Below are positions 2,515 through 49,808 of a stretch of DNA of 49,990 nucleotides, in pieces. Every line of letters starts with the position of its first letter. Within the stretch, counting starts at the first letter, position 1. The stretch is from an uncultured Bacilli bacterium (GTDB taxonomy: Bacteria > Bacillota_I > Bacilli_A > RF39 > UBA660): contig CANRPP010000006.1 of the NCBI GenBank assembly GCA_947632545.1, forward strand, positions 1 to 49,990, read 5' to 3'. The notes under the pieces were generated by a model. The model saw only the letters and a list, made by a program, of their open reading frames with translations. It was not told the DNA's origin and did not search any database. The translations under genes were made by a program, and so were the position numbers.

Positions 2515-4119
2515 ATGAATAAAACAAAAAAAATTGCCAAAGAAAATATAGAAAAATATGAAAAAATGAAAGAAAAAGAAGCTGAAGAAAGGACACGTGA
2601 AAAGACAATAGGTGATTATCATATTAATATAGAAACAAATTTTGATGATCCTATTAATCATAAACATGATAATATACGTATTAGAGCAGTTCATTTATAT
2701 ATTTGGTTTTTAGAAGATGATGATATTGAACTTGGATATGTAATAAAGAGAAAACCTATTCGACTTATATCATTTAAGAATGATAGTTATGAATTAGGTC
2801 AAATTCGATTAACATTTTGGCAAATGTATGATTTATTATCTTTGATTTCTTTAGATGGAGGGGAGATATTTGATAATTCATCTAAATTACTATCAGAAAA
2901 AGATAATAAAATTTTTTCTATAAACCCAGAAACAATAATTAAGGGATTCTCTGATTTGTGTAAAAGTTTTGAAGAATATATTTTCTATAAAAATTTTGAA
3001 AATAATTTTATAAAACAAAGAAAACAAAGTAATGAAATCGAAAAAATTCTTGATGATAATTCTTCATTTTTAAAGAATTGTAAGCACTATATAGAACATA
3101 AAGAAAAAACTAATAAAAATGAACAACCTAAAAATAATGAAGATTTTTGGAAAAAGAAAATTAAATCATATGAAATAAAAGTAAAAACAGATAAACCTAT
3201 TATTTATGGAGAAGATCCGTGGAATTTGAATAATCCTATTATTAAAAATAAAAATGATATATATATTAACTCAATTAGTCTAAAAATTTATTTCAAGGGT
3301 GGTTCAGCTCGTCTTTTAAAGTTTGACGGATTTGATTATAGTTATAAAGCAGGCAAAATAAAGTTATCAAAAAAACAGTTTTCTGATTTATTAAAGATGA
3401 TTATAACAAACCAAGATTTTTATTATGACAATAAAATCGAAACTATAGAATCTGACTTTTTTGATTATATAGGTGCTGAAAAATTATTAGAAGCCTTATT
3501 ATCAGTTAGTGATGTAGATGCAGATTTATCAATTATTAAATTGTGTAATGATTTTTTAAATTCAAGAGAAAAACATATAAAAGAACAGGAACAAGAAATA
3601 TACCAACCATTATATGAAAAGCATAAAGAATTTGATAAACTTTATGATGGATTAAGAAATAATAATTATAATAATAGTGATATATTAACAGAAATGTTTG
3701 AAAAAAATTTTTCTTCAAATAAAAAGTTACCAGAAGGTACAATTGATGAAATGTTATATGATTCTATGAGTGCAATAATTCCCACATTAGAAGAAATTAC
3801 AAAAGTAGAGTTTAATTTTAATAAGAAAGATAAGAAAGTAATTATTAATTCAATTATATCACTTATTAATTATGAATGTATGAAGTCTGATGAAAAAGTT
3901 TCAGCTAAATCTATAACAACATCAATATTAGGTGAAGCATTTTCTCAATCAGCAATTTTAGGTAAAAAGGAATTAGATATATATGATGTTGCTCAATCAA
4001 TATTAAATTGCGATAAAATTAATAAAGATATAAGAAAAAAAGAAGCTGAATCTTTGATAAATAAAGTAAAGAAAAATCAAAGAAAAAATGAAAAAAGTAA
4101 TAAAATAAAGAGAAAATAG
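2515..4119 (+). CDS. Protein of unknown function with an internally duplicated domain (paralogue 2)
   Basis: This 534-residue paralogue of the preceding gene shares RLISFKNDSYELGQIRL (copy A, ~53-215), RLLKFDGFDYSYKAGKIKLS (copy B, ~260-365) and the helical C-terminal domain (from ~423: SMSAIIPTLEEI..) ending in a basic tail. It has an extra charged helix at the N terminus (~1-30) and an insertion of about 60 residues, probably coiled, between copy B and the C-terminal domain. The start is ATG 2515 after GGAGG. It lies 82 nt after paralogue 1 with no terminator between, so the two are probably co-transcribed. No membrane segments or catalytic motifs are visible. Confidence 0.85.
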   Translation: MNKTKKIAKENIEKYEKMKEKEAEERTREKTIGDYHINIETNFDDPINHKHDNIRIRAVHLYIWFLEDDDIELGYVIKRKPIRLISFKNDSYELGQIRLTFWQMYDLLSLISLDGGEIFDNSSKLLSEKDNKIFSINPETIIKGFSDLCKSFEEYIFYKNFENNFIKQRKQSNEIEKILDDNSSFLKNCKHYIEHKEKTNKNEQPKNNEDFWKKKIKSYEIKVKTDKPIIYGEDPWNLNNPIIKNKNDIYINSISLKIYFKGGSARLLKFDGFDYSYKAGKIKLSKKQFSDLLKMIITNQDFYYDNKIETIESDFFDYIGAEKLLEALLSVSDVDADLSIIKLCNDFLNSREKHIKEQEQEIYQPLYEKHKEFDKLYDGLRNNNYNNSDILTEMFEKNFSSNKKLPEGTIDEMLYDSMSAIIPTLEEITKVEFNFNKKDKKVIINSIISLINYECMKSDEKVSAKSITTSILGEAFSQSAILGKKELDIYDVAQSILNCDKINKDIRKKEAESLINKVKKNQRKNEKSNKIKRK

Positions 4120-40026: not shown

Positions 40027-41166
40027 TTAAAAATTTAATTTATCTAAATCTTCATTTAATGATATATCAGCCATATATATAACACAATCTGGATTAGAAT
40101 TTTTAATATATTCTTTAATATTTTCACTAAAGTTACCATTTTGTGTTCTAATATCAATTGCATCAAAGTTTCCTATTGATAAAGATAAATATGGAGCTAA
40201 ACTATAAAACATTGAATCGTATATAAACAAAATTTTTGGTGTCTGATTTAGATCATTATTTTTTATACTTATATTAGGTTGCATTCCTCCTATTTGATAC
40301 ACATAAGGTTGGTGTGTTGATAGAGAATATTGGTTAACATCATATAATGTATTTAAAAAACTTCCAGATACAGTAGTCCTATCTTTTCCATAATATACAG
40401 TATAATTAGGAGATTTATTTGGTACATAAATAGTAAAATCATCAAATGAGTCACTAGATTGCCCTAGTAGCCTACCATAATAACCATAATAAGAATTTTT
40501 ATATACAATTTTATGAAAATTATTATAATTTAATGCACTTGTATCAAAATGATAATCATAGGTATTATTCAAACAATCAATCATCTTTTTTGCAAAATAT
40601 AATGAAGTTTTTGAAGTCCAATGATAATCTAATTTATAATACAAATCTTCTCTTTTGTTATCATCATTTTCTAAAAGAAAATTACCAATTATAAAATTTA
40701 TTTTTTCCTTATTTAAATTATCATAAATAACTGATTCTTTTGAAAAATGATAATCAAAAGAATAATAGTTTAATACATCTCTATAAAAGTATTCTTTTTT
40801 AGGAGTTTCAATATATAAAAACTTTATATTATTATCAGTCAAATATTTATTAAGCTTTATTAATTTTTTGGAAACACGTTGTGAATTATTAATATTTAAA
40901 TCAGTAAAGTGTAAGATATTTTGATCAGAATATTTATAATAATAATCATATATTTTACCACTATGTTTAATAGTAAGTCTTTTATTAATTTTTGAATTTA
41001 TATATGAATTTAATGATATTATTCTATCATAAAATGGAAAATATTCATTACTATCCTTATTAAGATTCTTTTCATAGTTACAAACTAAATTGACAATATA
41101 ACCAATTGAAAATACAAAATATACAAATATTAAGATAACAATTATTCCTTTATTTAATTTTTTCAT
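40027..41166 (-). CDS. DHHW/AlgX-like SGNH protein, probable glycan O-acylation
   Basis: This 379-residue protein has one N-terminal membrane anchor (~8-30) and an extracytoplasmic SGNH-like domain. The DHHW-type motif DYHW is at 180-183, and the nucleophile-type Asp-Ser (IYDSMFYSLAPYLS) at 317-318. The family includes AlgX/AlgJ and DltD-like partners of MBOAT proteins, which pass acyl groups onto polysaccharides outside the membrane. The ATG 41166 lies inside the end of the preceding gene (17-nt overlap) after GGAGTGAT. It is the last gene of the acylation locus. Confidence 0.82.
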   Translation of the reverse strand: MKKLNKGIIVILIFVYFVFSIGYIVNLVCNYEKNLNKDSNEYFPFYDRIISLNSYINSKINKRLTIKHSGKIYDYYYKYSDQNILHFTDLNINNSQRVSKKLIKLNKYLTDNNIKFLYIETPKKEYFYRDVLNYYSFDYHFSKESVIYDNLNKEKINFIIGNFLLENDDNKREDLYYKLDYHWTSKTSLYFAKKMIDCLNNTYDYHFDTSALNYNNFHKIVYKNSYYGYYGRLLGQSSDSFDDFTIYVPNKSPNYTVYYGKDRTTVSGSFLNTLYDVNQYSLSTHQPYVYQIGGMQPNISIKNNDLNQTPKILFIYDSMFYSLAPYLSLSIGNFDAIDIRTQNGNFSENIKEYIKNSNPDCVIYMADISLNEDLDKLNF

Positions 41167-42814
41167 TTTTATCACTCCAACTTACATACTTAACTACTAC
41201 TAAAAACATAATACATAACATACTAATTATTGTACTTAAAGATTGGATAAATGTGCCACTATAATATACAATTATTTTACCTTTTTTTGAATTTAAATTC
41301 ATTCCAATCAGACCATTTTTATTTTTAATTATCTTAACAGGTTTTCCATTAACTAAAATCTTGTATCCTTTATAATATATAATTGGTAATTCAATATAAT
41401 TATGTAATTTTTTATTATCATAAAAATATATTTGATATATATTATTAGAAAATAATATATTATATTTAAAATTATAACGTGAATTAATTTTAAAATTATT
41501 ATATTTTATAGTATATGAGTCACCATAAAATATATTTTTTATATTATAATTAATAGGCAAATACTCTCCCCAAGCTATTGAATATAAATATTCATTATTA
41601 ATTTTTCTGTAATATGATAATGAATCCTTTTTAATATATATATTTATAATATTTATAATAGTTATAAAACTGGTTAATAATAAAGTTATAAATAAAATAA
41701 TATATCTATACTTAAATTTAGTTATTTTCATATCTTTTAGCAAAAAAGCTGTTCCAAATACAAATAAAGTAGTTACAATTGCTAATAACCTCCATGGAAA
41801 TTGAAAAATTTTTAAATAACTTTCAAATAATCGCCATGGAAAAATATTAGTAGTAAATATTAATCCAATAAATGCTACAACAAATATTATCTTTGTATTA
41901 TTTTGGCACTTTTTAATATTTATAATAAATATTAGTAATATTGTCGAAAGAACAATTCCAATACCTGGTGGAATGTAATTTTTAGAAGGAATAAAATAAT
42001 TAAATTCGGTAAATAAATCTATTATTGATAAACTTCTATCATAAATATGAATATCAGACCCAGCATAAGCAAATCTAAATTTTTGATCTAATATTTGTTC
42101 AAACATAGGAAATGTAAAGAAAGCAGTTAATGCAATAGTAATAACTGATGAATAAAATAAATATAATAATATTTTTTTATTTTTCTTAACATTTTTAATA
42201 TTAAATAAAAGTATCATTAATAAAAAGAAAAATAATATACATGATGATAATAAATGCGATAAAATAACGGCTGACATTGACAAGGCTAATAATATATATT
42301 TATTTTTGCCATTAATAATTTCAAAAAATGAATATATTACAATAGGAAAAAATATATAAGCCATCGCAACACCTAATTGGCTACTAATATATATTGCAGA
42401 TAACCTAAAAGGCAAAAATCCATATATAATTGAACATATTATACCAATATTTTTTGAATTAGTAATTTTTTTAGTACAATAATACATTGTAAAAATACTA
42501 CAAAAGTTAATTATTAAAATAAATATTTTATATACTATTATATTATCAATAAATATATTAAATACAGCTGGTATATATAGAAAAAAATCGGGATAAAAAA
42601 ATCCTTCACCATAACCATAACCATAAAAATAATAAATATTACTTAAATTTAATGATAAGATTTTATCTCTAACAAACATGATTCTACTTATATGAAAATA
42701 AATATCATCACTATATAATATTTTATCGGAAAGTAAAATACTAGAAATAATTAAAGTTACAATTATTATAATAAAAATTGGCTTTTTAAAACTTTTAATT
42801 AATTTATTTTTCAT
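41150..42814 (-). CDS. Membrane protein of the PTPS-related/YfhO (GT-C-like) type
   Basis: This 554-residue protein has about 12 membrane helices. The first outer loop has YSDDIYFHISRI, an acidic pair plus His typical of GT-C enzymes, followed by GYGEGFFYPDFFLYIPAVF and ISSQLGVAMAYIFFP as in 6-pyruvoyl-tetrahydropterin-synthase-related membrane proteins. An outer C-terminal beta domain (IIYYKGYKILVNGKPVKI..MNLNSKKGKIIVYYSG) resembles YfhO, which glycosylates lipoteichoic acid. It probably transfers a sugar from a polyprenyl carrier. The ATG 42814 follows AGGTGAGAG. Confidence 0.75.
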   Translation of the reverse strand: MKNKLIKSFKKPIFIIIIVTLIISSILLSDKILYSDDIYFHISRIMFVRDKILSLNLSNIYYFYGYGYGEGFFYPDFFLYIPAVFNIFIDNIIVYKIFILIINFCSIFTMYYCTKKITNSKNIGIICSIIYGFLPFRLSAIYISSQLGVAMAYIFFPIVIYSFFEIINGKNKYILLALSMSAVILSHLLSSCILFFFLLMILLFNIKNVKKNKKILLYLFYSSVITIALTAFFTFPMFEQILDQKFRFAYAGSDIHIYDRSLSIIDLFTEFNYFIPSKNYIPPGIGIVLSTILLIFIINIKKCQNNTKIIFVVAFIGLIFTTNIFPWRLFESYLKIFQFPWRLLAIVTTLFVFGTAFLLKDMKITKFKYRYIILFITLLLTSFITIINIINIYIKKDSLSYYRKINNEYLYSIAWGEYLPINYNIKNIFYGDSYTIKYNNFKINSRYNFKYNILFSNNIYQIYFYDNKKLHNYIELPIIYYKGYKILVNGKPVKIIKNKNGLIGMNLNSKKGKIIVYYSGTFIQSLSTIISMLCIMFLVVVKYVSWSDKNEKIK

Positions 42815-42850
42815 TCTCTCACCTACCATTAAAATAGTTTATATTAGAAA

Positions 42851-43399
42851 TTAAATGTTAACTGTATCATCAATTATAAAATCACTATTATCGTTTATTT
42901 TATAACAAACAATTTTTTTATTAATTTTTCTATTAGAAAAACAATTTAATAGAATTTTTCCATCAGTATAAAATAATTTATTTATATCGTTATCTATAAT
43001 TACATCCGACATTTTTTTATTAATACCAGTACCTAAATATTTTAAATATGATTCCTTTTCTACCCACTTCTTTAACAAATTATAATTATCCTTTTGATAG
43101 TTATCAGACTCATTATAAATATAATTAATTAAATTATTTGGAAATAATCTACTACATAATTCAATATCTATTCCAACTTCATCTGTTGAAACAACCAATA
43201 CAATATAATCTTTTGTAGTACTATAATTAAAGAAAATTAAATTATTAATATATGGTTTTCCAAATTTATTATAATAATAATTAAATTCATAAATACCATA
43301 ATATTCGCTTAATATAAACTTTAAGAATTTTTTTCCACTTATATCATTTCCCTTTAGTAAAAATATATTAGCTATCATTCGTTGTTTTTTTGATAACAT
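42851..43399 (-). CDS. Sfp-type 4'-phosphopantetheinyl transferase
   Basis: This 182-residue enzyme moves phosphopantetheine from CoA to an acyl carrier protein serine. The family motifs are KFGKPYI (~45-51), FFNYSTTKDYIVLVV (~56-70), the Mg site VGIDIE (~75-80), and KKWVEKESYLKYLGTGI (~110-126). It overlaps the end of the ACP gene by 32 nt (or 11 nt if it starts at the second Met, 43378), with no Shine-Dalgarno, so translation is coupled to its likely substrate. It is shorter than Sfp, but the catalytic core is complete. Confidence 0.9.
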   Translation of the reverse strand: MLSKKQRMIANIFLLKGNDISGKKFLKFILSEYYGIYEFNYYYNKFGKPYINNLIFFNYSTTKDYIVLVVSTDEVGIDIELCSRLFPNNLINYIYNESDNYQKDNYNLLKKWVEKESYLKYLGTGINKKMSDVIIDNDINKLFYTDGKILLNCFSNRKINKKIVCYKINDNSDFIIDDTVNI

Positions 43400-43607
43400 A
43401 TTTTTTCAATTCACCCCAATTTTTAATACCTTTTAAATCCTTAAAAGAAATACTTATATTATATCTATTTGATATTTCATAGAGTAGATTCATATGTGAA
43501 AGACTATCCCACTCGACTATATCTCCAGGGGCAAGACTATCATTAATAGAATAATTATCATCTAAATATAATATTTCTCTAAAAATATTATCTAACTCTT
43601 TTTCCAT
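43368..43607 (-). CDS. Acyl carrier protein
   Basis: This 79-residue four-helix carrier has the modified Ser35 in EWDSLSHMNLL. The W-D-S-L form is common in carrier proteins of surface polysaccharide and specialised loci rather than in fatty acid synthesis (D-S-L-D) or DltC. It lies 14 nt after the MBOAT gene and overlaps the PPTase gene. The likely job is to carry an acyl or aminoacyl group to the MBOAT protein on the inner face of the membrane, as DltC does for DltB. The group is unknown. Confidence 0.92.
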   Translation of the reverse strand: MEKELDNIFREILYLDDNYSINDSLAPGDIVEWDSLSHMNLLYEISNRYNISISFKDLKGIKNWGELKKYVIKKTTNDS

Positions 43608-43621
43608 ACACTAAATTCCTC

Positions 43622-45031
43622 CTAAAAATTAAAATATAAGAATGGGCTATAACCATTAATTATTATATAATAAATTGATATAAGAAACATTGAAAAAATT
43701 ACAATTGTATGCAATATATCATAATATTTTTTATTTTTAATAATAGCTTTTATTTTTTTTATTATTGGAAAAGAAAACATAATACCAATTATAATATATA
43801 TATAATAATTGCTAATTAATAAAAAAAATCTATTATCAATAAATTTATTATTTATAAATAATGATTTAAGAAATATAAATTTATTATCCTTAAACGAGAA
43901 AAATATAACCGTTCCTATCGTTACTACAATTAGTGTAAATATACGGGATAGTACTTTTCTTTTCTTTATAAACAAACAATTTTTTTCTAATGAAATTACT
44001 ATAAAATAAAATAATCCTAGATATAAAAAATTAATTGCTATACCATGCCATAATCCAATTATTAACCATAGTATTAATAATACAATAAAATTACATAATT
44101 TATATGCTACCCTTTTATTAAATACCTTTGAAAATATAAAAATCATTTTTTTATATATCTTACTATTACATATAGGAAATAATAAATAATCATTAAACCA
44201 CTGTCCTAATGAAATATTCCATCTTTTCCAATAGTCATTTACTGATATAGCATTATACGGATAGTTAAAATTTCTTTTTATTTTAAAACCAAAAATTTCT
44301 CCTAAACCTATTGCCATATCTGAATATCCAGAAAAATCATAATAAAATTGTATCATTATTAAAATAGCACCTAACCATGATGTAGCATAACTTATTATTT
44401 TTCCTGTAAATATAGACATTGCAACAACACCAAGTGTATCAGCAATAACACTTTTTTTAAATAAGCCTATTATTAAATTAGTACTACCAGATTTAATATT
44501 ATCAAATGAAGTTTTTCTATTATCTATTTTTTTATAAATATCTTCATATCTTACTATAGGGCCAGCAATTAATTGTGGAAAAAATGTTATATATAAAGCA
44601 TATTTTAAAAAGTTTTTTTGTGGTGGTATAACTCCCCTATAAATATCGATAATATATGATAATTCTTGAAATGTAAAAAAAGATATACCTAAAGGTCCTA
44701 CAATAGGTAGCAAAGCTGTTTCAGTTTTCATAGCAGTTATAGTTCCTAAAATTTTATAAATTAAAAATATAGTTATATTTATTATTACACCTAATGCTAA
44801 AATTAATTTTTTACATCTTACTTTATTTAACACTATTCCAATTGTATAATTTAATATAATAGAAAAAACAATAATATATAGATATTTTAAAGCCCCATAA
44901 CAATAAAAGATTATACTAAAAATTAACAATATAATATTTTTAAATTTAATATTTTTTATAATAGGATTAAAATATAATAATAAACATATTGGCAAAAATA
45001 TAAATAAAAAACTTAAAGAAGAAAATACCAT
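43622..45031 (-). CDS. MBOAT family O-acyltransferase (AlgI/DltB-like)
   Basis: This 469-residue membrane enzyme moves an acyl group across the membrane towards a surface polymer. Family landmarks are MVFSSLSFLFIFLP at the start, QLIAGPIVRYEDI, FYYDFSGYSDMAIGLGEIFGFKI, YPYNAISVNDYWKRWNISLGQWFNDYLLFPI, and the catalytic His in LIIGLWHGIAINFLY (~residue 327). It is the first gene after a near-consensus promoter at 45068-45096 and starts the run MBOAT, ACP, PPTase, GT-C, DHHW. It is closer to AlgI-type in start and length than to classical DltB, but the ACP next to it argues for Dlt-like chemistry. Confidence 0.94.
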   Translation of the reverse strand: MVFSSLSFLFIFLPICLLLYFNPIIKNIKFKNIILLIFSIIFYCYGALKYLYIIVFSIILNYTIGIVLNKVRCKKLILALGVIINITIFLIYKILGTITAMKTETALLPIVGPLGISFFTFQELSYIIDIYRGVIPPQKNFLKYALYITFFPQLIAGPIVRYEDIYKKIDNRKTSFDNIKSGSTNLIIGLFKKSVIADTLGVVAMSIFTGKIISYATSWLGAILIMIQFYYDFSGYSDMAIGLGEIFGFKIKRNFNYPYNAISVNDYWKRWNISLGQWFNDYLLFPICNSKIYKKMIFIFSKVFNKRVAYKLCNFIVLLILWLIIGLWHGIAINFLYLGLFYFIVISLEKNCLFIKKRKVLSRIFTLIVVTIGTVIFFSFKDNKFIFLKSLFINNKFIDNRFFLLISNYYIYIIIGIMFSFPIIKKIKAIIKNKKYYDILHTIVIFSMFLISIYYIIINGYSPFLYFNF

Positions 45032-45067
45032 ATATTATACTCATCCTTTCTATTTTATATTATAATT

Positions 45068-45096
45068 ATTATATCATTTTAAAGCCGTAAAATCAA
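45068..45096 (-). promoter_or_regulatory. Sigma-A type promoter of the acylation genes
   Basis: On the minus strand TTGATT (45096-45091), 17-bp spacer, perfect TATAAT (45073-45068). It starts the MBOAT-ACP-PPTase-GT-C-DHHW unit separately from the three genes upstream. Confidence 0.8.
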
Positions 45097-45112: not shown

Positions 45113-46321
45113 TTAATACGCAAATATATACATATGATTGGTTATAATATTAAGTATTATAAATATATTAAAAAACAAGATAATTAATTTTTTTATAACG
45201 TCATACTTCAGTAGATATTTATCTATAACATAAATATCTAAAATAAACATAATTATATAATTAAATATATAATATTTAATATCAACTATATCATAGGATG
45301 CGATTCCAAGAAAAATATAAAAAATTGAATTGAAAACAATTGAGATAAAATTAAATACTGCTAGTTTATTAATTTTCATTTCGTTTTTATTTTTATTTTT
45401 AATTAAGATTATTGGCATAACAACTATAGTAAATAACATAAATACTAGCCTAAATAATATAGTAATACCATAAATGGAGCTTAACGAATAATTAGACATA
45501 TTATTATAATATATAATATATTTACCATTAGTAATTAAATCATAACCATTACCAATACCAAATATACTAATTGCAATATCTATTAGAGAAAGAAATCTAT
45601 TTTTGATATCAAATAATTTATATGATATTGTAAATAAATAATAATTATTTGCAATTATTATATAAAATAAATACAAAAGAAATAAAGTTATAAAAAATAT
45701 CAAAAATTTATATCCGTTTTTTATTTTTTGTTTTTTATAATTATACAATAATTCTAATATAATATAAGGAATTATTATAGTATGTAAACAATAAAAACTA
45801 TTTATACCTAATAATATTATTAGAATAGTAAAAATAATAATTTTAAGTAATTTATTACTATTAAATAATTTAAAACATAAATAATAAACTCCTAAAAAAA
45901 TAACAACTTGATATAAAAATGAATTATATAAAAATATTGATAACATATAATCCCTTGATATACCACATAATAATATTAAAAATAGTACTATTTTTTGATT
46001 TTTATTTAAATACATATCAGAGATTTTATATATTAAAAACATATATACTAATAATAAAGATAATGTAACCAAAAATTTTATAATAAAAGTATTGCCAAAA
46101 AGATATGTTAATAATCCTGGATTAATAATATATAAAGTACCATCATACATATAATTATTAATAATAAAATTATGAAATAAAAATTGTTTTCTCCCAATAA
46201 TTTCTGTCACATTATACATAATTGAAAAATCACTTTTTAGTGAAATAATCATATATAATAAAGCAGAAAAGATTGAAGCAATCAACAATAATATATATAT
46301 ATTATTTTTATTTTTTGTCAT
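45113..46321 (-). CDS. Polytopic membrane protein, GT-C-like, short paralogue
   Basis: This 402-residue protein has about 10-11 membrane helices. It is a paralogue of the next gene upstream: both have an acidic residue in the first outer loop (here SDFSIMYNV), a loop ending in (L/P)TYL, LCGISRDYMLSIFLYNSFLYQ against a similar segment, and MPIILIKN near the end. It lacks the ~120-residue outer C-terminal domain of the longer protein. A glycosyltransferase role is inferred from shape only. It starts at ATG 46321 after AGAGGTGGAT. Confidence 0.7.
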   Translation of the reverse strand: MTKNKNNIYILLLIASIFSALLYMIISLKSDFSIMYNVTEIIGRKQFLFHNFIINNYMYDGTLYIINPGLLTYLFGNTFIIKFLVTLSLLLVYMFLIYKISDMYLNKNQKIVLFLILLCGISRDYMLSIFLYNSFLYQVVIFLGVYYLCFKLFNSNKLLKIIIFTILIILLGINSFYCLHTIIIPYIILELLYNYKKQKIKNGYKFLIFFITLFLLYLFYIIIANNYYLFTISYKLFDIKNRFLSLIDIAISIFGIGNGYDLITNGKYIIYYNNMSNYSLSSIYGITILFRLVFMLFTIVVMPIILIKNKNKNEMKINKLAVFNFISIVFNSIFYIFLGIASYDIVDIKYYIFNYIIMFILDIYVIDKYLLKYDVIKKLIILFFNIFIILNIITNHMYIFAY

Positions 46322-46335
46322 AAATTATCCACCTC

Positions 46336-47988
46336 TTATTTTAAATTTAAAAAAGGATTTTTATTATATACATAAATTAAAAAATCATTGCATTTTATAA
46401 TTTTATCTGGTTTATAATATTTCTTATCTTTATAATAACTAAATCTTTTTTTGTCCAATTTATCCATAATTAAAAATACAGTACCATTATTTTTTTTATT
46501 ATACCATGTTTCATCAGAATACCATTTATATTTATATAAACCTGAATCACGAAATTCCAAAGCTGCAATTGTTACATCATAATTAGATAAAAAATGCATT
46601 AAAAGGCCACTCCAAAAGCAACCATAACCATAATATAAATTATTTTCTTTTAAAACTTTTACCAATTCATATTTCTTATTAATAGCCTCAGTATTATTAA
46701 CACTAATTATATTATAAGTAGTATATAAATTTGAAGCTATATATAATAATATAAAAATATCTACAATATAAAATTTTATTCTTTTTGATACAACATAATT
46801 ATATAATGAATAAATACACATAATCAAATTTAACACAATATTTAAAAGAAAATATTTTAGTTCTGAATAGTTATAGAAAAAATTACATGTTAAAATATAT
46901 AACATAATCATAACTATCCAAGAATAAGTATTAAATATCAATAGAAAATTTATAAATTTATTATTTGATTTATAATTTTTAAACAAAATTATTGGAGATA
47001 TAACAATTACTAATAAACACATAATAATTTTAATAAGCATAGTAAAAGACATAACTGAAAATATTTTATATATTCTGTGATTAGGAACAAAATATTGCAT
47101 ACCAGTCATAAAAGCTGCTGGATTATTTCTATTATCATATCCAAAAAAATTATTAATACAATCAATTATAGCTGAAATTTTATTTATTACTATTTTCCCA
47201 GATAATACTCCTAAAGTCATATTACCTGCTCTTTGCTCATAATGATATATATTTGTTAACAAATAAAATATACCAAGTCCAATTAAAGAAAAAGTAATAA
47301 TATAAATTATAAATATGAGCTTTTTTTTATTTTCTTTAATAATCATTTCAGTATTTTTAGTTTTATTTTCTAAAAATAATATAGTTATAAATGCCATTAT
47401 CAATGGAATAATTACACTTGGAAAATATCGCAAACTACCAATATTAAATAACAAAGAGAAAATCAACAGAAGTACCGAAAAAATTTTATTAGTATTAGTA
47501 TCAAGTATAACTTTGTAAAATAAATAAATTAAAAATAATGAATTTATAATAACAGTAAGATATGCATTAAAAGCATAAAAATAATCTAAAACACTATATG
47601 ATATTCCTGATAAAAAGATAATACAAATTATTATAGTTTGTTTAAAATTAAAAGATTTTTTACAATACTTTATTATTAAAAAGAAAAATAAAATTGCAGT
47701 GATTAATACACTGATTTGCCTCAATATAACATTATTTTTAATAAAAAATGATAATAAGTATGTAGGAATTGATAATGAAAATAGCCAAAATTCATTACCA
47801 TAATACCATGTTTTAAGAAATAATGTATTTTTTAATCGTTGTTGATGTGATAAAACATCAGTAATTACAGAATCAGATGTTAAAATAGCAGTAGAACTAT
47901 GAAATATATAAATTAATGTTGCAATTAAACCTAATATGCCCAATATAAACAATAATATTATTATAAAATTATTATACTTTTTCTTCAT
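46336..47988 (-). CDS. Polytopic membrane protein, GT-C-like, long paralogue
   Basis: This 550-residue protein has about 11 membrane helices followed by an outer C-terminal domain (~430-550). The first outer loop contains LTSDSVITDVLSHQQ, with acidic residues where GT-C enzymes keep their catalytic Asp. The C-terminal domain (YGYGCFWSGLLMHFLSNYDVTIAAL..) may bind the acceptor glycan. No Pfam family can be named with certainty. The ATG 47988 follows GGGAAGTG, whose GTG is in frame. It lies 17 nt after the DUF2142 gene and 14 nt before the short paralogue. Confidence 0.7.
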   Translation of the reverse strand: MKKKYNNFIIILLFILGILGLIATLIYIFHSSTAILTSDSVITDVLSHQQRLKNTLFLKTWYYGNEFWLFSLSIPTYLLSFFIKNNVILRQISVLITAILFFFLIIKYCKKSFNFKQTIIICIIFLSGISYSVLDYFYAFNAYLTVIINSLFLIYLFYKVILDTNTNKIFSVLLLIFSLLFNIGSLRYFPSVIIPLIMAFITILFLENKTKNTEMIIKENKKKLIFIIYIITFSLIGLGIFYLLTNIYHYEQRAGNMTLGVLSGKIVINKISAIIDCINNFFGYDNRNNPAAFMTGMQYFVPNHRIYKIFSVMSFTMLIKIIMCLLVIVISPIILFKNYKSNNKFINFLLIFNTYSWIVMIMLYILTCNFFYNYSELKYFLLNIVLNLIMCIYSLYNYVVSKRIKFYIVDIFILLYIASNLYTTYNIISVNNTEAINKKYELVKVLKENNLYYGYGCFWSGLLMHFLSNYDVTIAALEFRDSGLYKYKWYSDETWYNKKNNGTVFLIMDKLDKKRFSYYKDKKYYKPDKIIKCNDFLIYVYNKNPFLNLK

Positions 47989-48005
47989 ATACAACACTTC
48001 CCTTA

Positions 48006-49808
48006 TTATAAATAATTAACTATTATTTCCATTAAAGACATAATATTTACAATAACTATTGTAAAAAATATCAAGTCATTTGTATATTTTTTTGACTCTT
48101 GTTTGATTAAAGATGATATTAATAAATATATTATTAATATTTCTGGGAAAAAATATCTTCCTTGAACAATCCATATAGATAAATCACAATATGGTATATA
48201 AAATATATAAACACTTAAAAATGTAGCAATTATTAACAATATCAATATAATTGAAATACATATAATATTAGACTTACTCAATAATATTTTTTTTTCGTTC
48301 TTATCTTTTATTATATATATAAATGCAATAATCATCATAATTGGTACAATAGTATTATTGCTAATTATTTCCCCCATTAATAATTTATTACCAAAAAATT
48401 CAGAAATTATTTTAAAACCATAAGTTTCAATAGAATATAAGAAATATTTTATAAATCTAAACGGATTATGAAGAAGAAATAATAAATTCTTGCTTGGGAC
48501 TGAATATGGGCTAGCACCATATGAAATAGACGATGCAATAAGTAACCATATTAAATTTAATATAATTGGTAATATAATTACATATATTATACATTTTAAT
48601 CTAGAAGTATTTTCATATTTACTTTTAGGTATTAATAAAATCAAGAAAGGCATTATTATGTATATAATTTTACATAAAGCCAGTATGCAACTTATTAAAG
48701 ATAATATAAAAATATCCTTATTTGTAATCTTATCTGATTTCATAATTTTAAATATATATGAAACCAATAAAATACCCAAACAAATAGTAATACCATCACC
48801 ACTTAATGTAGTAAAACATTCAATAGCTAATGGATTAAATAAAAAGAAAAATAATATTTTTTTACCAATAGGTATTATTTTAAAGGCACAGGATAACAAT
48901 AATATACAAGTTAATGCATTAAATAATCTACCAATATAAGCAGCTATAATAACATTATTAGATATTTGTTTAGATATAAATACTCCTATTGTTTGAGGAA
49001 TATATTGAACTGGTGAATAAACATCAATACTACCTGCTGATAAAAAAGTTAAAGGAGAATTATAATTATAATAAAATTTATTAAAATAATCTCTGTATTT
49101 ATAATTATCATAGTAATTTAAATTTAAATCAACATCTTTTGGTAAATAAGCACCTGTTTTATTTGAATTTATAATAGGAATTACTCTACCTGAAACTATT
49201 TCATTAATTTTTATTAAATGATATTCTTCATCATGTCCTGCAGTAATAGGTATAAAAATTATATATAATAAAAATATAGGTATGGCAATTTTATAGAAAT
49301 TATTAAAAATATCAATTTTCTTTATATTAATAAAATAATAGATTAAAGAAAATATAATAATAATAAATATAAATAAAATATGAAACCATAATTTAACATT
49401 GTTTGGATAATATAAATTCAATGAATAATAATTTATATCATTTGGTTGAGATTTTATAGAAAAATAATATTCTTTATTATCAGTCAATTTAATATTAGCT
49501 GTATCAAATACATAATATCCATATTTAAGAAATTCTTTACCAATTATTTTTTGACTAAAAATTTCTTTTTTCTTATCTTTAATTACAATTTCAATAGAAT
49601 TATATTTATTTTCTTGTTTAGTTTTTTGAAATATTTTAATTTTTTTCAAATTTGAATTAATATTAATTCTTTTATAATTATTTACACTAATATTATATTT
49701 ATTAATATTGTAACTATTTTCATTCATATCAATTTTATTAACAAAATAAAAATATGAAAATAAAATAAAAAATATGAAAAGAAATATCTTGATTTTATTA
49801 TTTTTCAT
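48006..49808 (-). CDS. DUF2142-type membrane protein, probable GT-C glycosyltransferase
   Basis: This 600-residue protein has an N-terminal membrane helix, an outer beta domain (~40-135), then about 11 membrane helices. Family landmarks are GHDEEYHLIKINEIVSGRVIP (~190-210), where the D-E-x-x-H after the second helix resembles the GT-C catalytic loop, SPVQYIPQTIGVFI, and TLSGDGITICLGILL. DUF2142 genes often sit in surface polysaccharide clusters. It is the first gene of the locus, with its own promoter at 49876-49904 and GGAAGAAG before ATG 49808. Confidence 0.8.
   Translation of the reverse strand: MKNNKIKIFLFIFFILFSYFYFVNKIDMNENSYNINKYNISVNNYKRININSNLKKIKIFQKTKQENKYNSIEIVIKDKKKEIFSQKIIGKEFLKYGYYVFDTANIKLTDNKEYYFSIKSQPNDINYYSLNLYYPNNVKLWFHILFIFIIIIFSLIYYFINIKKIDIFNNFYKIAIPIFLLYIIFIPITAGHDEEYHLIKINEIVSGRVIPIINSNKTGAYLPKDVDLNLNYYDNYKYRDYFNKFYYNYNSPLTFLSAGSIDVYSPVQYIPQTIGVFISKQISNNVIIAAYIGRLFNALTCILLLSCAFKIIPIGKKILFFFLFNPLAIECFTTLSGDGITICLGILLVSYIFKIMKSDKITNKDIFILSLISCILALCKIIYIIMPFLILLIPKSKYENTSRLKCIIYVIILPIILNLIWLLIASSISYGASPYSVPSKNLLFLLHNPFRFIKYFLYSIETYGFKIISEFFGNKLLMGEIISNNTIVPIMMIIAFIYIIKDKNEKKILLSKSNIICISIILILLIIATFLSVYIFYIPYCDLSIWIVQGRYFFPEILIIYLLISSLIKQESKKYTNDLIFFTIVIVNIMSLMEIIVNYL

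Follow-up and report, generated by a model that had tools for sequence, protein, structure and literature searches.

We found that the DNA within positions 40027-45096 of the window, by which we mean the whole 49,990-bp stretch analyzed, probably encodes a carrier-protein-fed MBOAT-SGNH acyltransferase, whose front end resembles Dlt and whose back end resembles PatA1/PatB1. We infer its reactions, acyl group and acceptor; acylation of a surface glycan is the best reading of its role. The window is the entire contig C6; the draft genome to which it belongs measures 1.05 Mb and is split into 42 contigs. Every genome used was a draft assembly, and some were 5-7% contaminated.

The gene cluster and its assignments

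All five open reading frames that the sequence-only reading had described were found on the minus strand (Table 1). With single sequences the Pfam assignments were weak: the scores were 28.4 bits to ALGX for the DHHW protein, 50.6 bits to MBOAT for MBOAT, 26.5 bits to PTPS_related and 25.6 bits to YfhO for the YfhO-like protein, 25.2 bits to ACPS for the phosphopantetheinyl transferase (PPTase), and 16.8 bits to PP-binding, under the cut-off of 20.8, for the acyl carrier protein (ACP). The assignments became firm because profiles built with relatives matched PatB1 (DHHW protein, E=7e-59), DltB (MBOAT, E=2.5e-25), Sfp (PPTase, E=8e-9) and a putative ACP (carrier, E=9e-12). The five genes are real and sit where the sequence-only reading had placed them.

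Table 1. Features of the acylation module and its upstream neighbors in the window
Feature	Position	Strand	Remark
MBOAT O-acyltransferase, 469 aa, PatA1-type	43622..45031	-	catalytic His329, codon 44045-44047
Acyl carrier protein (ACP), 79 aa	43368..43607	-	attachment Ser35, codon 43503-43505, within WDSLSHMNL
Sfp-type phosphopantetheinyl transferase (PPTase), 182 aa	42851..43399	-	GIDIE and WxxKE motifs
YfhO/PTPS-related polytopic membrane protein, 559 aa	41150..42829	-	likely GT-C glycosyltransferase
SGNH "DHHW" protein, 382 aa, PatB1-like	40027..41175	-	Asp183, His185, Ser321
MBOAT residues 272-291, NISLGQWFNDYLLFPICNSK	44159..44218	-	stands in place of HISLS...YIPLGG
MBOAT C-terminal FLYFNF = FXYXXF acyl-tyrosine shuttle motif, Tyr466	43625..43642	-	
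Promoter-like site TTGATT-17-TATAAT with TG, 5' of the MBOAT gene	45068..45096	-	consensus match only
Membrane protein, 402 aa, upstream in the module's directon	45113..46321	-	without family match
Membrane protein, 553 aa, upstream in the module's directon	46336..47997	-	without family match
DUF2142 membrane protein, probable GT-C	48006..49808	-	directon's first gene before the contig end

The catalytic residues named earlier stood in substance, with some renumbering. ACP Ser35 was correct as given, the MBOAT histidine placed near residue 327 is His329 here, and the DHHW residues given as 180-183 and Ser318 are correct on a start three residues later, the residues here being Asp183, His185 and Ser321. 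In alignments, all of them are unchanged in the four relatives, and Ser321, Asp183 and His185 are invariant across 35 sequences. Among relatives of solved structure, PatB1 of Bacillus cereus is the best match to the DHHW protein. AlphaFold models of the DHHW protein (3 sequences; mean pLDDT 48.9) and of the ligase described below (2 sequences; mean pLDDT 44.9) were discarded; their low pLDDT reflects alignments that were too shallow.

The YfhO-like and DHHW genes overlap by 26 bp and the ACP and PPTase genes by 32 bp, with gaps of 14 and 21 bp at the remaining junctions. This spacing is compatible with a single transcription unit, as the sequence-only reading had proposed. The promoter-like match at 45096-45068 carries no weight by itself; a consensus scan returned 168 such matches against 140 expected. 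The directon also takes in three further membrane-protein genes upstream of the MBOAT gene (45113-49808) and reaches to 182 bp from the contig end, so that a gene missing from the window gives little information. Elsewhere in the window, the products of the neighboring genes at 1008-2432 and 2515-4119 (474 and 534 aa) resemble each other, as seen by eye in the translations, and the two genes are apparently a tandem duplication.

Relatives, the AMP ligase and the carrier

The survey covered 291 genomes of the host's family. A related MBOAT was present in 132 of them, and nearly all of the about 40 loci inspected were MBOAT-DHHW pairs in which an ACP was not detected. The module recurred in three further genomes: G257 carries ACP-PPTase-MBOAT-DHHW followed by a small gene, rsmD, an AMP ligase and hrcA, and G293 and G294 each carry a contiguous PPTase-ACP-ligase-MBOAT-DHHW cassette, the ACP of G294 (L128:8965-9204) being masked by a spurious ORF. 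ACP and PPTase adjoin the MBOAT gene in all four genomes that carry the clade MBOAT. The ligase orthologue (E<1e-138) and the clade MBOAT (E<1e-240) occurred in the identical four of nine genus genomes, and the chance of identical presence sets is 1/126.

An AMP-binding search of the host genome returned five enzymes, of which four were long and FadD-like and one was short. The short enzyme, a 454-aa ligase, lies on contig C31, separate from the contig of the module, in the order rsmD, ligase, hrcA, grpE, dnaK. The G257 orthologue (472 aa) is 48% identical and occupies the same rsmD-hrcA slot. The sequence-only reading had stated that no adenylating enzyme is present; this dedicated AMP ligase on C31, found also in the G257 slot and in the G293 and G294 cassettes, overturns that statement. 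The family is of about 455 aa, with high scores confined to the host genus: outside the genus, no match of an order-wide search with the ligase exceeded 117 bits, and a profile scan of 84,980 species genomes had two congeners and two remote matches among the matches listed.

Against acyl-CoA ligase models the two ligase members tested reached 104-127 bits, and against DltA models, for which the cut-offs are 476 and 560 bits, they reached 56-71 bits. All model scores were far under the curated cut-offs, and the closest models were of the PRK06187, PRK08308 and MenE type. The low DltA score is not a lineage effect, because other ACP-adjacent ligases in the bacterial family scored 250-450 bits to DltA and 237-321 bits to the amino-acid adenylation domain. 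Asp197 of B. cereus DltA holds the D-alanyl amino group (PMC8972799). Around this position the alignment has low identity; the amino-acid-type ligases mostly read FDxS there (two read FSMS), and in the four genus ligases, which read (D/P)(I/L)(S/C)(H/R)(S/A)YS, the Asp197 position is occupied by Ser or Ala. Because the ligase is without the amino-group Asp of DltA, it probably loads something other than an amino acid, a conclusion for which the low-identity alignment is good, not final, evidence. The ATP-binding and catalytic residues are intact (SSG(T/S)TG, YGATE, Arg364 and Lys447). The four long AMP-binding proteins of the host (L084-L087, with L088-L090 as further cases) are of 576-665 aa. 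In three cases the immediate neighbor encodes a membrane protein with a length of about 610-665 aa, and in the fourth there are two acyltransferase-like genes alongside; the four proteins possibly serve a lineage without fatty-acid synthesis by activating fatty acids from outside.

The sequence-only reading had called the module a distinct surface-glycan acylation system, to be checked by a search of relatives for the five-gene order and a loading enzyme. The MBOAT-ACP-PPTase-DHHW core is conserved and is distinct from Dlt and from plain pairs, and a ligase is linked to it in relatives. The YfhO-like gene was not in the other three module loci (G257, G293 and G294), being confined to the window among the loci examined, and was dropped as a part of the core; an FkbH gene was not seen beside the module. 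That reading had also held that an ACP and PPTase conserved apart from the MBOAT gene, or a complete dlt-type set in close relatives, would count against it. The adjacency in four of four genomes speaks for the former genes belonging with MBOAT. The organization in G293 and G294 is largely that of a dlt-type set, although neither the sequence of the ligase nor its pocket resembles that of DltA.

Upstream of the cassette, G293 (L127:11426-14554) and G294 (L128:83-3192) have DUF6020 membrane proteins, which in G294 lie beyond topoisomerase genes; in the window, DUF2142 and YfhO-like proteins take this place. These differing membrane proteins beside a common acylation module are probably glycan enzymes.

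The PPTase contains the GIDIE and WxxKE Mg/CoA motifs, is longer than AcpS and is closest to Sfp; AcpS models scored it more weakly. Searches of the host genome with PF01648 and PF00550 each returned a single match, both in the module, with no second PPTase or ACP match, and a profile search of the same genome did not find a ketoacyl synthase. Across the family, a ketoacyl synthase was present in 5 of 291 genomes (absent from 286) and any PPTase in 46; of the 51 PPTases found in the family, 19 are no more than 4 kb away from an MBOAT gene. Loss of fatty-acid synthesis has been reported in order RF39 of Bacilli (PMC6784871), of which the host may be a member. The PPTase is built into the module because the lineage lost fatty-acid synthesis and is without a housekeeping AcpS, so that a module that depends on an ACP has to supply this enzyme itself; the oddity of a built-in PPTase is thereby explained. 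The host illustrates how carrier-protein chemistry survives without fatty-acid synthesis, with the activating enzyme moving together with the module. At locus L129 (G291:C31), a congener has an ACP together with a ligase that is DltA-like (448 bits); no PPTase was found in that genome, which is only 82% complete.

A changed loop in the MBOAT protein

The FLYFNF ending of MBOAT belongs to a general pattern, since 59 of 60 MBOATs of the bacterial family end in Y..F. The tyrosine of this FXYXXF motif is acylated in PatA and DltX (PMC12148441). In the tree, the four genus MBOATs formed one clade (support 100/100) nested among 40 MBOATs from MBOAT-DHHW pairs without ACP, and every other ACP-adjacent MBOAT sat in a second, separate clade. 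At 17 positions the four MBOATs are fixed differently from the 40 sister sequences, and 6 of these positions lie between residues 272 and 289.

In this loop the sister MBOATs, which have no ACP neighbor, read WxxWHxSLS...Y(I/F)PLGG or a near variant, whereas the four genus MBOATs read WxxWNISLG...L(F/Y)P(I/L)CNSK. The second ACP-adjacent clade, which descended separately, reads SLG or TLG...(F/Y/M)YP(L/I/V)xxS. We compared the 60 MBOATs of loci L033-L166 and the MBOATs of L182-L204, and found PLGG missing in 28 of 28 ACP-adjacent MBOATs; 15 of the 28 were fetched after the pattern had been noticed and so were not used in finding it. The 28 cases represent about two independent transitions in the tree, not 28 independent events. 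MBOATs without an ACP in view retained PLGG with three exceptions, one on a 5-kb contig, one truncated at a contig start and one in G221, whose genome has ACP and AcpS on a different contig. The L204 MBOAT has Gly at the position of DltB Ser293 and keeps PLGG, with no ACP in view; only the loss of PLGG is therefore diagnostic.

By profile alignment to DltB, residues 272-291 correspond to His289-Ser293 and the HC helix, and the changed positions align with His289, Ser293, Phe301, Met302 and Val305. In DltB structures, DltC contacts Met302, Val305, Ile306 and Met309 of the HC helix, and Ser293 contributes to a tunnel block (PMC11035591). Because they align with the docking helix and Ser293, the changes in the MBOAT clade would be expected to affect carrier docking and passage of the carrier arm. 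The tie between the loop changes and carrier feeding is correlative, has about two independent origins behind it and falls short of proof. Whether PLGG is kept or lost is a possible general mark of the acyl donor of an MBOAT, and the loop signature offers a test of that donor from sequence.

Carrier-associated MBOATs of other makeup also occur in the bacterial family. Sets of FkbH, ACP, MBOAT and a downstream protein of 340-360 aa were seen at L154:4890-6665 and L157:1016-2887 as well as at L155, L156 and L158, with FkbH-domain proteins scoring about 264 bits to TIGR01686; they make up a second kind of carrier-fed MBOAT, with a loading enzyme of a type that the sequence-only reading had suggested looking for. 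A set of amino-acid-type AMP ligase, ACP, MBOAT and AcpS was repeated at L165:4664-10458, L166:4555-10320 and L185-L191. The L165 and L166 sets include a LysA-like PLP enzyme, which suggests a racemized or decarboxylated amino acid as cargo.

Proposed pathway and its place among known systems

In the pathway that we propose, the Sfp-type PPTase would convert apo-ACP to holo-ACP, and the dedicated AMP ligase would activate a carboxylic acid, probably a non-amino one, and load it onto the ACP. The acyl-ACP would then dock at the cytoplasmic face of MBOAT, on the loop equivalent to the DltB HC helix, where His329 would catalyze acyl transfer to Tyr466 of the FLYFNF shuttle. Outside the cell, the PatB1-like DHHW protein would receive the acyl group on Ser321 and hand it on to a surface-glycan hydroxyl; this glycan is perhaps the product of the adjacent membrane glycosyltransferase-like proteins. 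We also lean, with less assurance, toward a broader view, in which one gut genus converted an acetyl-CoA-type PatA1/PatB1-like machine so that it accepts a non-amino acyl group from a dedicated carrier, its docking loop was rebuilt in convergence with those of other carrier-fed MBOATs, and PLGG, kept or lost, predicts for bacterial MBOATs acyl-CoA as against carrier feeding.

The placement of MBOAT among pairs without ACP, the closeness of the DHHW protein to PatB1, the gene order that differs among species and the unlinked ligase in the host would all suit two units lying side by side, in which MBOAT-DHHW O-acetylates from acetyl-CoA like PatA1/PatB1 while ACP, PPTase and ligase serve another reaction. 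We nevertheless consider this arrangement unlikely, given that ACP and PPTase adjoin every clade MBOAT, that the presence sets of ligase and MBOAT coincide, and that the changes in the carrier-docking loop are common to other ACP-adjacent MBOATs.

A divergent but true Dlt system, placing D-alanine onto a teichoic-acid-like polymer, is less probable again. The functional set of ligase, carrier, MBOAT and outer SGNH protein is equal, and MBOAT matches the DltB equivalog model TIGR04091 with 147 bits, which is under the cut-off of 375. Against this stand the preference of the ligase for acyl-CoA ligase over DltA models, in a family whose amino-acid-type ligases score well to DltA, its lack of the amino-group Asp, the fused shuttle in place of DltX and the PatB1-like DHHW protein. 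As for a ligase-independent route, in which the ACP would be loaded from acyl-CoA or through an FkbH enzyme, sets of FkbH, ACP, MBOAT and SGNH protein do exist in the host's bacterial family; with the ligase orthologue in four of four module-bearing genomes and no FkbH-like gene seen beside the module in the loci examined, we give this route very little credence. A carrier-fed MBOAT-SGNH acyltransferase with its own ligase thus remains our preferred reading.

PatA1/PatB1 of Bacillus cereus O-acetylate the secondary cell wall polysaccharide, and PatA/PatB are their Gram-negative counterparts. The module shares with both a catalytic-His MBOAT, a C-terminal FXYXXF shuttle and an SGNH partner with Asp-His and Ser. 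Pat-type pathways are described as carrier-free and acyl-CoA-using (PMC12148441). Unlike such pairs, the module adds ACP, PPTase and ligase, and the PLGG loop of its MBOAT is replaced. DltABCD(X) carries out the D-alanylation of teichoic acids, and the module resembles it in having an ATP-dependent ligase, a dedicated carrier, an MBOAT and an outer SGNH protein. It differs from Dlt in that the ligase is without an Asp197 equivalent, the cassette holds its own PPTase, the shuttle motif is fused to the MBOAT C-terminus with no separate DltX, and the outer protein is PatB1-like.

The sets of G250 and G103, and those of G066 and G012 with a LysA-like gene, likewise have an MBOAT that is carrier-fed and bears a fused shuttle, with a PPTase or AcpS close by; unlike the module, their ligases are of amino-acid type (252-304 bits to DltA, 305-321 to AA-adenyl-dom) and their MBOATs form a separate clade. 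The module ligase shares family and catalytic motifs with acyl-ACP synthetases and acyl-CoA ligases (PRK06187, PRK08308 and MenE), but it lies far below their curated cut-offs in a genus-confined family of its own. In a non-exhaustive literature search, with most subscription papers outside its scope, we found no published carrier-fed MBOAT with a fused shuttle. MBOAT-SGNH pathways have been split into Dlt, with a carrier and separate DltX, and the rest, with a fused shuttle and acyl-CoA (PMC12148441). The module would not be a member of Dlt, because the tested Dlt-defining features fail, nor, given its carrier, a simple pair of the Pat type; it unites a fused shuttle and a carrier, two arrangements that this division keeps apart.
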